This document shows positions 4,977 to 7,340 of a DNA stretch of 28,293 nucleotides, piece after piece; position 1 is the first letter of the stretch, and every line of letters begins with the position of its first letter. Position numbers and translations under genes: made by a program. Origin of the DNA: a virus; IMG/VR virus record IMGVR_UViG_3300037827_000025, positions 1-28,293 of that record, one strand, 5' to 3'. Below the pieces are notes generated by a model that had not been told where the DNA came from, did no database searches, and saw nothing but the letters and a program-made list of their open reading frames with translations.

Positions 4977-5159
4977 TTATTTACTCAGCAGTCTGGAGAA
5001 AGCAAGTTCCATGCGGACGTAATCAGTATCCGACATCGGAATATCATTTATTAGGCAGCCGACGGCGCAAAGAACAATCATACGCTCAAACTTCAGGTCA
5101 ACTCGTTTTGGTCTGGTTGAAGCTTTCGGCTGCTCGGTTAGAACGTCTGGAGTTTTCAT
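4977..5159 (-). CDS. Small hypothetical phage protein
   Basis: A 60-aa product. The start at 5159 overlaps the previous stop as ATGA and is preferred over the in-frame ATG at 5177. The N-terminus is Pro/Lys-rich (TEQPKASTRPKR) and the rest is a helical hydrophobic segment (MIVLCAVGCLINDIPMSD) followed by a charged helix. It could be a membrane-associated or small DNA-binding adaptor protein; nothing decides. It lies directly before the DUF3987 ATPase. Confidence 0.65.
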   Translation of the reverse strand: MKTPDVLTEQPKASTRPKRVDLKFERMIVLCAVGCLINDIPMSDTDYVRMELAFSRLLSK

Positions 5160-5392
5160 TCTGTTCGCCAGATCCAAAGATGCTTTCCTACAGTTCTACG
5201 CTTGTACTTATAGCCAAGCTTCTTTGCGTAGTACTTGTAAGAGCAGGTCGCGTTGTCGTGCTCCCTTGCGTCTGCCACCGAATAGCAGTCACCAATAGCC
5301 ATCGTTCCGAACGGCCATCGCGGCATTCCGGGTTCCGATTTGCCAAGGTCAATCTCGGTCGGATTAAGGTAAAGCATGTCAGTCATCGGCAT
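5156..5392 (-). CDS. Phage hypothetical protein, first gene of the leftward operon
   Basis: A 78-aa product. ATG at 5392 follows GAGAGAAT; an ATG two codons later is an alternative. The C-terminal half YKYYAKKLGYKYKRRTVGKH followed by LWIWR is strongly basic and aromatic and looks like a small nucleic-acid-binding fold (the 'RRTVGKHLWIWR' end resembles domains that read guide or DNA backbone, but this is only a resemblance). The N-terminus has NPTEIDLGKSEPGMPRWPFG. No known function. First gene downstream of the control region, with a possible promoter at 5426-5454. Confidence 0.7.
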   Translation of the reverse strand: MPMTDMLYLNPTEIDLGKSEPGMPRWPFGTMAIGDCYSVADAREHDNATCSYKYYAKKLGYKYKRRTVGKHLWIWRTE

Positions 5393-6003: not shown

Positions 6004-6032
6004 TTGACATGAATTTGGCGATGGGCGATTAT
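6004..6032 (+). promoter_or_regulatory. Rightward sigma-70-type promoter of the tRNA/RNA locus
   Basis: TTGACA (6004-6009), exactly 17 bases, then GATTAT (6027-6032). The -35 is perfect consensus and the -10 matches four of six; the same two hexamers with the same spacing recur at 7312-7340. The transcript would start near 6039 and run through the boxA, the tRNA and the structured region to the terminator at 7256-7287. A 38-codon ORF (6009-6122) overlaps the promoter; both cannot readily be used together. Confidence 0.6.
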
Positions 6033-6150
6033 GGGTTCGTGGTGAATGAGCAGGTCGATGCTATAGCCTCCAAGATTGCACTACGGGTAAGTCAAAGCAC
6101 TTGGGTGACAACCAAAGCCTGAGATCGACACAGGCCACCACAACTTTAAA

Positions 6151-6160
6151 CGCTCTTTAA
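6151..6160 (+). promoter_or_regulatory. boxA-like antitermination element (rrn/nut type)
   Basis: CGCTCTTTAA matches the bacterial rrn boxA (TGCTCTTTAACA in E. coli) over nine consecutive bases and the start of lambda nut boxA (CGCTCTTA). It lies about 110 bases downstream of the predicted start from the 6004 promoter and before the tRNA. It is flanked by AACTT/AAGTT arms (6142-6146 and 6166-6170), which could present it in a loop. In rrn operons boxA recruits NusB/S10 to keep polymerase going through untranslated structured RNA; that fits this location. Confidence 0.45.
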
Positions 6161-6264
6161 ATCTGAAGTTGTTATTCGCATGCCAAGTCAAGTGATTGAT
6201 ATCTTGATGGTCTGATGAGATATATCTGGTTGCTCTGAGAAATATCGTTAGGCGCTTACTCTGA

Positions 6265-6322
6265 TCAAGCTAGTGTAAAATCTATCGGGATAGACCAGTT
6301 CGACTCTGGTGGCTTGGCAGCC
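6265..6322 (+). other. tRNA-like element with T-arm and acceptor-like stem but no D or anticodon arm
   Basis: ACCAG-TTCGACT-CTGGT (6294-6310) is a textbook T-arm. The next seven bases GGCTTGG (6311-6317) can pair with TCAAGCT (6265-6271) as an acceptor-like stem (five Watson-Crick and two G-T pairs). Between them lie only 22 bases, enough for a short TCTAT/ATAGA hairpin (6281-6294) but not for D and anticodon arms. No CCA end is encoded. It is either a decayed tRNA or a minimal tRNA-like structure. Confidence 0.4.
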
Positions 6323-6342
6323 GAATAACAATTACACCGAAT

Positions 6343-6417
6343 ATGACTCTAATGTAACGGCAGCATGCGGGATTCCAAATCCTTGCAGTGTGGGTTCGAA
6401 TCCTACGGGTCATGCCA
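6343..6417 (+). tRNA. tRNA-Trp (anticodon CCA)
   Basis: A 75-base cloverleaf can be drawn. The acceptor stem is ATGACTC with GGGTCAT, discriminator G, and CCA encoded at 6415-6417. The D-stem is ATGT/GCAT with a seven-base loop holding GG. The anticodon stem CGGGA/TCCTT has one C-T mismatch at its base and the loop TTCCAAA has U33 and CCA at 6375-6377. The variable loop has five bases and the T-arm is GTGGG-TTCGAAT-CCTAC. It would read UGG (Trp). The A10-T25 D-stem pair and the mismatch make it slightly divergent from host tRNAs, as is common for phage tRNAs. Confidence 0.8.
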
Positions 6418-6607
6418 AACACCGATTGCAAGTCGGTCCAACCTGTAAAGTTTGCCCGGAGTCCTCCTAGCTCCTGCGGTAAGGGCGCAATACAGGAAAC
6501 TTGCTAGCCAAGGGCACCCCCACCTGTTGTGCTGGTAGTCGCGCCAGTGGCGAAAGAGCGATAGATTTGAGATGCGTGATGTAGTGCGCCCGCCCGCAGA
6601 TGCGGAA
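6418..6607 (+). other. Structured non-coding stretch after the tRNA
   Basis: No gene is visible here. Several hairpins can be drawn: ACCGA-TTGCAAG-TCGGT (6421-6437), TCCTGCG...CGC/CAGGA (6472-6497) and CGCC-AGT-GGCG (6542-6552). CCTGTA (6442-6447) can pair with TACAGG (6491-6496). GCACCCCCAC (6514-6523) can pair with 7189-7199 (ten pairs, one bulged A), which would link this stretch with the structured region further right, although one such pairing is near what chance allows. It ends at the first copy of the 16-bp repeat. Confidence 0.4.
6592..6607. repeat. 16-bp direct repeat, left copy
   Basis: GCCCGCAGATGCGGAA, identical to 6871-6886. The core CCGCA-GA-TGCGG is itself a small inverted repeat. 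The two copies flank the 72-aa gene, which begins 33 bases after this copy. Confidence 0.8.
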
Positions 6608-6639
6608 CCTATAATCAAATAATCAAATGAGGCGCTAAA

Positions 6640-6858
6640 ATGACTATAGAAACAATAAGCCTGAGCGGGATATTGAATATTTCCGTTCGTGAATCATCGG
6701 CAAAGATTTGTTTTGTCGGTGAAGGTGGGTTGCCAAAGCAGATTATTGTAGATTTGTCTTCAGGTGACAGCGGAATTATTTCCGCCCTGAAAGAGGCGAG
6801 AGATCACAGAAAAGAAAGCGGCCTTGATGTGACTTCCTTTCCTGATGGAGTGTTTTAG
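6640..6858 (+). CDS. Small hypothetical protein inside the RNA locus
   Basis: A 72-aa product. The ATG at 6640 has GAGG nine bases upstream, and a TATAAT at 6610-6615 lies in front, without a matching -35. The sequence reads as a beta-rich start (ISLSGILNISVRESSAKICF) followed by PKQIIVDLSSGDSGIISALK and a charged tail, plausible for a folded small protein. It is the only coding gene between the tRNA and the terminator, and it is flanked by the exact 16-bp repeat, so it looks like a cassette placed in otherwise non-coding sequence. No family recognised. Confidence 0.65.
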   Translation: MTIETISLSGILNISVRESSAKICFVGEGGLPKQIIVDLSSGDSGIISALKEARDHRKESGLDVTSFPDGVF

Positions 6859-6870
6859 TTTTTGATAATT

Positions 6871-6886
6871 GCCCGCAGATGCGGAA
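6871..6886. repeat. 16-bp direct repeat, right copy
   Basis: GCCCGCAGATGCGGAA, identical to 6592-6607, starting 13 bases after the stop of the 72-aa gene. It marks the left edge of the next structured stretch. Confidence 0.8.
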
Positions 6887-7290
6887 ATCGTCTTTATCGC
6901 CTGATATGTTGTTTGTCGGTGGCTATGTCTTCGGAGGTATGACCGGGCTAGCGACACATCAGGGATGCAGATGTAAGAGCAGGCTGATGCTCATGCCCGT
7001 CGTGCGAGGCCAAATCGTTGAGGGTCTTCCTCTAAAATAGGTCAACTCGGATTCAGCAACCGAATCTGCATCAAACTGGCAAGCATAGCTCGACGAGGGA
7101 AGGCGTCTGCTGGACGACGCTGGAGAGGCGATACGCGGATCATCACCGCCCTTATGACTCGATGCTCAACCTCTCAGCCAGGCAATACGTGGGGAGTGCA
7201 TACCGAAGTTCCACGCTAAGCTACAGGGTATGTCAGACGGCAGGGACGAGACCGCAAGCCCGCAACCTCACGGAAGCGGGCTTTTTCTCG
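6887..7290 (+). ncRNA. Candidate structured non-coding RNA of about 400 nt ending in a terminator
   Basis: No supported gene lies here, yet many nested pairings can be drawn. CCTGAT-a-TGT (6900-6909) pairs with ACA-c-ATCAGG (6954-6963), and directly next to it GATGCAGAT (6964-6972) pairs perfectly with ATCTGCATC (7064-7072). Further right are GCGTC/GACGC (7103-7107/7116-7120), CTGG-AGAGG with CCTCT-CAG-CCAG (7120-7128/7170-7181) enclosing GCGG/CCGC (7135-7138/7146-7149), and GCATACC/GGTATGT (7198-7204/7227-7233). The stretch finishes with a Rho-independent terminator. I recognise no Rfam family. Each helix alone could arise by chance; the number and adjacency are the evidence. Confidence 0.45.
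7240..7290 (+). terminator. Rho-independent terminator of the RNA locus
   Basis: AAGCCCGC (7256-7263) pairs with GCGGGCTT (7276-7283) around a 12-base loop, with a T tract at 7282-7286. An outer arm GACGAGA (about 7245-7251) can pair with TCTCGTC (about 7286-7292), lengthening the stem. It lies about 20 bases before the next promoter, so it separates the RNA locus from the structural operon. Confidence 0.8.
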
Positions 7291-7311: not shown

Positions 7312-7340
7312 TTGACATAGTGGTTATGTGTTGCGATTAT
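7312..7340 (+). promoter_or_regulatory. Rightward sigma-70-type promoter of the structural operon
   Basis: TTGACA (7312-7317), 17 bases, GATTAT (7335-7340): identical hexamers and spacing to the promoter at 6004-6032. The predicted start near 7347 leaves a leader of about 34 bases with AGGAGA (7367-7372) before the ATG at 7381. No further strong terminator is seen downstream, so it may drive the head and tail genes, possibly with other promoters not recognised here. Confidence 0.65.

Follow-up and report, generated by a model that had tools for sequence, protein, structure and literature searches.

Sequence comparison points to a modular phage RNA locus carrying two copies of a widespread, uncatalogued folded unit

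The phage contig analysed here (IMG/VR virus record IMGVR_UViG_3300037827_000025; the whole stretch of 28,293 bases is called the window) is shown by comparison with other phages to encode a modular RNA locus with two copies, A and B, of a folded unit that is widespread among phages and has no family in Rfam 15. The locus lies to the left of the terminase, portal, protease and capsid genes. The closing helix (P1) of each unit brings two hairpins (P2 and P4) together; their loops pair, and a variable arm (Y) extends out of the clamp so formed. We regard the fold of the region's RNA as almost certainly real. A preliminary description, made from the letters of the window, had pointed to a single structured RNA of about 400 nt at 6887-7290. 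The observation of structure is confirmed and its interpretation partly supported: instead of one large RNA, the conserved unit at copy B is a 109-nt core (6964-7072) with an upstream hairpin from about 6887, the remainder of the 6887-7290 stretch consists of other exchangeable modules, and both a further copy of the unit (6035-6145) and a pseudoknot (7188-7232) had been missed. The mapped parts of the locus are as follows.

6004-6032, plus strand: predicted sigma70-like promoter TTGACA-17-GATTAT, directly 5' of copy A
6035-6145, plus strand: copy A of the RNA unit, matched by models R1 and R2, the latter with the window held out
around 6047-6062, plus strand: P2 hairpin and loop L2 of copy A, loop AGGTCGAT
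6117-6135, plus strand: P4 hairpin and loop L4 of copy A, loop AGATCGACA
6136-6142, plus strand: 3' strand of P1, copy A
6343-6417, plus strand: tRNA-Trp (CCA), lying between the two copies, found by ARAGORN and by RF00005 (46.2 bits, 6343-6414)
6872-6884, plus strand: small hairpin CCCGCAGAUGCGG upstream of copy B, with a second copy at 6593-6605
6891-6898, plus strand: strand U (UCUUUAUC), which could pair with the 5' strand of P1 in competition with the 3' strand
6900-6963, plus strand: variable hairpin X, from folding; the first nine-pair stem of the preliminary description
6964-6972, plus strand: 5' strand of P1 (GATGCAGAT), copy B
6977-6992, plus strand: P2 hairpin GAGC-AGGCUGAU-GCUC with loop L2, copy B
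6993-7045, plus strand: variable arm Y, copy B (12-166 nt in other copies)
7046-7063, plus strand: P4 hairpin UCGG-AUUCAGCAA-CCGA, with L4 complementary to L2, copy B
7064-7072, plus strand: 3' strand of P1 (ATCTGCATC), copy B
7188-7232, plus strand: H-type pseudoknot CGTGG/CCACG plus GCATACC/GGTATG, with conserved AAGCTACAG
7256-7286, plus strand: likely intrinsic terminator AAGCCCGC-N12-GCGGGCTTTTT, predicted

Both copies were recovered by the R2 model, trained without the window, at 46.6 bits for copy A (E 1.1e-10) and 30.8 bits for copy B (E 1.6e-6), and the same search of the 28 kb window gave no match beyond these two; the R1 model scored copy A at 43.3 bits. The features that define the new family, namely P1, P2 and P4, complementary loops L2 and L4, and recognition by a model built without the window, are found in both copies. 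Copy A has P4 as GCCUG-AGAUCGACA-CAGGC and complementary loops of the GUCGAU/AUCGAC set. Copy B carries the common loop set but with a weaker L4, its P4/L4 being aberrant (AUUCAGCAA, four pairs).

Folding energy was rejected as evidence. The 404-nt fold of 6887-7290 has a minimum free energy z of +0.24 against dinucleotide shuffles, 55 of 100 of which fold as well, and z is 0.00 for 6418-6640. The earlier caution that individual stems could be chance therefore holds by energy; it fails by comparison, where they are significant in homologues. The two main stems are present in the sequence where they had been placed, 6900-6963 with nine pairs and a bulge (CCTGATaTGT.../...ACAcATCAGG) and 6964-6972/7064-7072 with nine exact pairs, and both are conserved features when relatives are compared, whereas a bulged nine-pair stem and a seven-pair stem from the same description were not confirmed. 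As had also been noted, the gap is without a gene: no protein-family match falls inside it, and the nearest open reading frame is at 6640-6858.

Phage P1 (three copies), other phages, E. coli prophages and IMG/VR contigs together yielded about 120-150 distinct copies of the unit; one of those in phage P1 (OP279344) is at 65633-65769. Matches of blastn to annotated phages fell mostly in unannotated gaps and included phage P1, the P1-like phage RCS47, and Klebsiella, Erwinia, Pseudomonas and Burkholderia phages. With a phage P1 copy as query, matches on chromosomes and plasmids turned up in 1383 of the 5426 complete E. coli genomes. A strict 19-nt pattern occurred in 5/395 Enterobacterales, 3/300 Burkholderiales and 1/294 Pseudomonadales genomes, counts that are lower bounds and rest on orders that we assigned from the named centre genomes; the same pattern written backwards had no match in those genomes. 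A variable-gap pattern scan of the contigs returned mostly chance matches and was set aside. The relatives share a recurring order of CCCGCAGATGCGG, CGTCTTTATC, a phage-specific hairpin, GATGCAGATG and, far later, CATCTGCATC, and contigs with related terminases reveal that the gap is a mosaic, L002 retaining 6142-6607 and then jumping to 6871-6899.

The order within the unit is P1, a linker, hairpin P2, the variable arm Y, hairpin P4 and the 3' strand of P1; the linker is AAU in 109 of 126 copies. Helix P1 has mostly 7-10 pairs, P2 has four pairs and the loop AGGCUGAU, and P4 has five pairs and the loop AGAUCAGCA, with the P1 3' strand immediately after. Covariation in homologues, which the preliminary description had named beforehand as a test, is strong in P1 and P2 and extends to the loop-loop pairing. 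Helix P1 exists in dozens of paired versions, for example GATGCAGATG/CATCTGCATC, CGTTGTGGTG/CACCACAACA, GGATTGGATG/CATCCAATCA, GAGTGGTCTG/CAGACCACTC and GAAGTAGGTG/CACCTACTTC. Among 22 diverse copies, 93.1% of cells were paired against 78.7% in shuffles and 29-49% in slid versions, and double changes numbered 76 against 23 in shuffles, with the reservation that kinship among copies inflates simple shuffle tests of this kind. When 1653 column pairs were ranked over 122 copies, the top seven all lay within P1 or P2, but the initial parser had demanded P1 pairing and thereby biased this ranking, so the P1 test was redone without that condition. In the copies anchored on P2/L2 and P4/L4 only, which removes the P1-pairing bias in part, 94-99% are paired at the inner seven positions of P1, and P1 pairing averages 8.13 of 10, compared with 6.09 when partners are shuffled (maximum 6.64 in 1000 shuffles). 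Under a tree-based null, only three column pairs reached E<0.05 over the 122 copies; this null is heavy-tailed because of columns with few changes, and the ranking and the unconditioned tests were added alongside it for that reason. A scan of the reversed sequence that required the whole structure found none.

The common loops, GCUGAU and AUCAGC, are complementary yet nearly constant, and copies with other P4 loops were therefore sought without using complementarity. All 16 such copies having P1 and P2 have loops that match at five or six of six positions. The loops change together as the sets GCUGAU/AUCAGC, GUCGAU/AUCGAC and GCCGAU/AUCGGC, with the G-U intermediate GCUGAU/AUCGGC, and a wider search that left the loops unconstrained returned 105 copies, each of which has five or six of six loop pairs.

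In most copies a long hairpin X precedes the P1 5' strand and the strand U precedes X. Strand U and the P1 3' strand can both pair with the P1 5' strand, which makes them alike and their pairings mutually exclusive. This arrangement was found in 96 of 121 copies compared with 36-42 in shuffles, under criteria that are loose although many examples are perfect. At the X site most copies have a long hairpin whose sequence differs from copy to copy, and the Y arms likewise vary in sequence but stay structured (mean z -0.70). Since the lengths of X and Y vary freely and changes in P1 come as pairs, no reading frame is preserved, and hidden coding was ruled out on the variation of X, Y and P1. Folds resembling a tRNA with a long extended acceptor stem were seen within X or Y in L331 (2393-2490), L327 (2425-2490) and L011 (5217-5284). 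A generally tRNA-like X was ruled out, as the T-loop motif is present in just seven of the hairpins listed.

L086 and L089/L090 have the promoter 5' of copy A at the identical place, and L087 and L585 carry a close variant (GATGAT). The promoter stops a few bases short of copy A, so that the predicted transcript start is probably at the P1 5' strand. The extended terminator of the preliminary description is likely as well: 7256-7286 has an outer extension GACGAGA/TCTCGTC, is identical in sequence in L086 and L087, and shares GCGGGC-T5 with L002, while its long loop explains its absence from a simple terminator scan. Just past it, at 7312-7340 and ahead of the genes leading to terminase, is a second TTGACA-17-GATTAT promoter.

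The remaining parts of the locus recur in other phages. The hairpin CCCGCAGAUGCGG upstream of copy B has an equivalent position in L002 and L083-L090, and L003, L007 and L011 carry the variant CCCGCACAUGCGG. After copy B and the domain 7073-7187 comes the pseudoknot, present in the window (L001), L003, L087, L088 and L206 as five copies with four distinct, fully paired versions of both stems. This element, with its AAGCTACAG, is absent from Rfam; the phages that have it carry the main RNA too, and the copy in L003 is at about 5120-5165. A 16-nt direct repeat, GCCCGCAGATGCGGAA, at 6593-6607 and 6871-6886 brackets a stretch with a 72-aa open reading frame (6640-6858) that has no Pfam or PHROG match; L002 has the repeat once only and lacks the bracketed stretch, which resembles the insertion of cargo between RNA modules. 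In L002 (4600-4690), a module AGCTCAACCCGCATTGCGCAGGG...GAGCTA replaces the interior of copy A directly after GGTGAAT and recurs at other positions in other phages (L178, L345). Two further modules recur, the hairpin CCACCAGCGACAATGCCAGCGCAGGACCTGAAATCCTGTTAGCTTCTGGTGG 3' of main-RNA copies (L011 5315-5370, L083, L088, L089, L012) and CGGTGCCATTAACCGACGGCGCGGGATGCGTCGATAA (L011, L089, L199).

At the gathering score, Rfam 15 finds tRNA-Trp alone in the window, and a permissive scan adds chance-level matches only, in line with the earlier expectation of a structured RNA outside the known catalogue. GOLLD and ROOL are phage-associated structured RNAs reported near tRNAs. The preliminary description had likened the gap to them while seeing no sequence match; Rfam agrees on the latter, and identity is ruled out as neither model matches, the unit being unrelated by Rfam, far smaller and modular. 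Proteo-phage-1 RNA (RF03044) is likewise a phage RNA, and Pseudomonas phage PS-1 has a match to it (L335 2270-2349, 63.7 bits) just 5' of a copy of the unit, at about 150 nt, but it is a separate neighbouring element without overlap.

The closest known relative is STnc100 (RF02076), a gammaproteobacterial prophage sRNA, which had no match in the window either at its gathering score (47 bits) or in the permissive scan. STnc100 has a P1 with ..GGUG/CACC.., an AAU linker, P2, a variable middle and a P4 abutting the P1 3' strand, and the same layout is found in the window copies, with linker AAU in copy A and UAA in copy B. The phage or prophage setting is shared too, with tRNAs adjoining in PhiR49_2 and a position after Q elsewhere. 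STnc100 differs in its loop sequences and in its P4 (CCGGG/CCCGG); its type of P2 loop and P4 (CCGGG-AGGCA-CCCGG) are not present in copy A or B, and kissing between its loops is not clear, at most 3-4 nt against the 6-nt pairing in window-type units. STnc100-like elements of HK639, Fraca, Klebsiella phage 2b and two E. coli phages all show the P1-AAU-P2-variable-P4-P1' order, and one adjoins three tRNAs upstream of a holin gene. Run unfiltered, R2 aligned with these five at full length, in the right place and on the right strand, at 19.7, 16.9, 13.0, 9.7 and 8.3 bits, the two weakest being at noise level; an R1 search at E<5 did not find STnc100 members. The third phage P1 copy, matched by R1 and R2, also matches RF02076 at 33.9 bits (E 1.7e-5), under the gathering score. 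This copy (L327 3185-3311) looks intermediate between the window-type family and STnc100. From these comparisons we read STnc100 as a sister family and not the same family, with a kinship below the Rfam threshold. STnc100 RNA has been detected on northern blots (PMC5331693), and PasD, which has been linked to STnc100 (PMC13192938), is likewise an expressed, northern-verified prophage RNA, with Hfq-dependent stability (PMC8550237).

Our preferred reading, held at slightly under an even chance, is that the units act in trans as small RNAs. An RNA would start at copy A from the promoter at 6004-6032 and end near 7286 at the terminator, both predicted; tRNA-Trp and the RNA units would be cut out of this common precursor, the units persisting as stable species. 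The clamp may be the constant part, which stabilises the RNA or is bound by an RNA-binding protein of the host, and X and Y the changeable arms that provide phage-specific pairing or decoy specificity. Trans action with specificity arms would fit the Hfq-dependent prophage sRNAs of the same layout (the STnc100/PasD group). The genome positions are unrelated: copies lie by tRNAs (phage P1, KP591P1), 5' of early genes (an Erwinia phage), near NinG (AH02) and, in E. coli prophages, after a repressor or antiterminator. Such occurrence in unrelated phages and positions favours a free-standing RNA over a switch of a single gene. Against this, many copies are followed by a gene start at 17-100 nt, a spacing that a cis-acting leader would explain as well.

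In a leader of that kind, competition between U and the P1 3' strand for the P1 5' strand would control downstream read-through or translation, with a ligand, a protein or the rate of transcription deciding which closure forms; we consider this rather unlikely. The mutually exclusive pairings are retained across very different sequences, many copies are just 5' of a same-strand gene (median 170 nt, minimum 17 nt), STnc100-like copies lie between antiterminator Q and the downstream late genes, and a terminator and a further promoter come after the window locus, all of which speaks for such a switch. It accords poorly with a distance to the next gene that ranges over 17-657 nt and flanking genes that vary between phages, with a copy A preceded by a promoter and lacking U and X, with several copies in a row in phages such as phage P1, and with the likely terminator between the window copies and the next gene. 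Less probable still is a module for stability or processing, in which the clamp, once closed, protects RNA ends against nucleases, so that tRNAs and other RNA pieces survive in long phage transcripts, X and Y being passive spacers. In several phages the TTGACA promoter does put the predicted start at the P1 5' strand, X and Y remain structured while they change freely, and all 22 of the 22 tRNAs detected by ARAGORN within 1 kb of a copy are on the same strand. These tRNAs accompany just 22 of 123 copies, however, so that the tRNA neighbour emphasised in the preliminary description is real for some copies and not a defining feature; 101 of 123 have none detectable within 1 kb, promoter-started copies are just 9 of 152, and the loops are conserved beyond the needs of passive end protection.

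The unit could also serve as a decoy or sponge, its tRNA-like or variable arms baiting a host defence such as tRNA-targeting nucleases. Some X arms carry T-arm sequence (seven of the listed hairpins, and copy 1 of phage P1), the X of L331 scores as a tRNA, the Y of L011 carries a tRNA-like fold, and the arms evolve fast; most X and Y are not tRNA-like, however, and no defence gene or phenotype is linked to the unit, which makes this explanation improbable. An element working at the DNA level, as a recombination or integration site or a mobile cassette, with inverted repeats that form hairpins in the DNA, would account for the direct and inverted repeats and for the cargo swapped at unit boundaries between the window and L002. 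The G-U intermediates and the loop-loop covariation indicate RNA, the promoters and tRNAs lie on the same strand, and the relatives by layout are expressed RNAs, and we give this alternative hardly any weight.

More broadly, the units might represent a general phage RNA platform for hypervariable arms, a kissing-loop clamp with an alternative closure, forming a large uncatalogued family of which STnc100/PasD is one branch; this is a tentative proposal, somewhat more likely wrong than right. If true, the platform would span phages of Enterobacterales, Pseudomonadales and Burkholderiales hosts, with each phage swapping arms freely. The RNA itself is widespread, sits in unannotated gaps, has no Rfam entry and is present three times in the classical laboratory phage P1. 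It places the prophage sRNAs STnc100 and PasD within a shared frame, and its loop-loop helix and competing closures define exact compensatory mutations.
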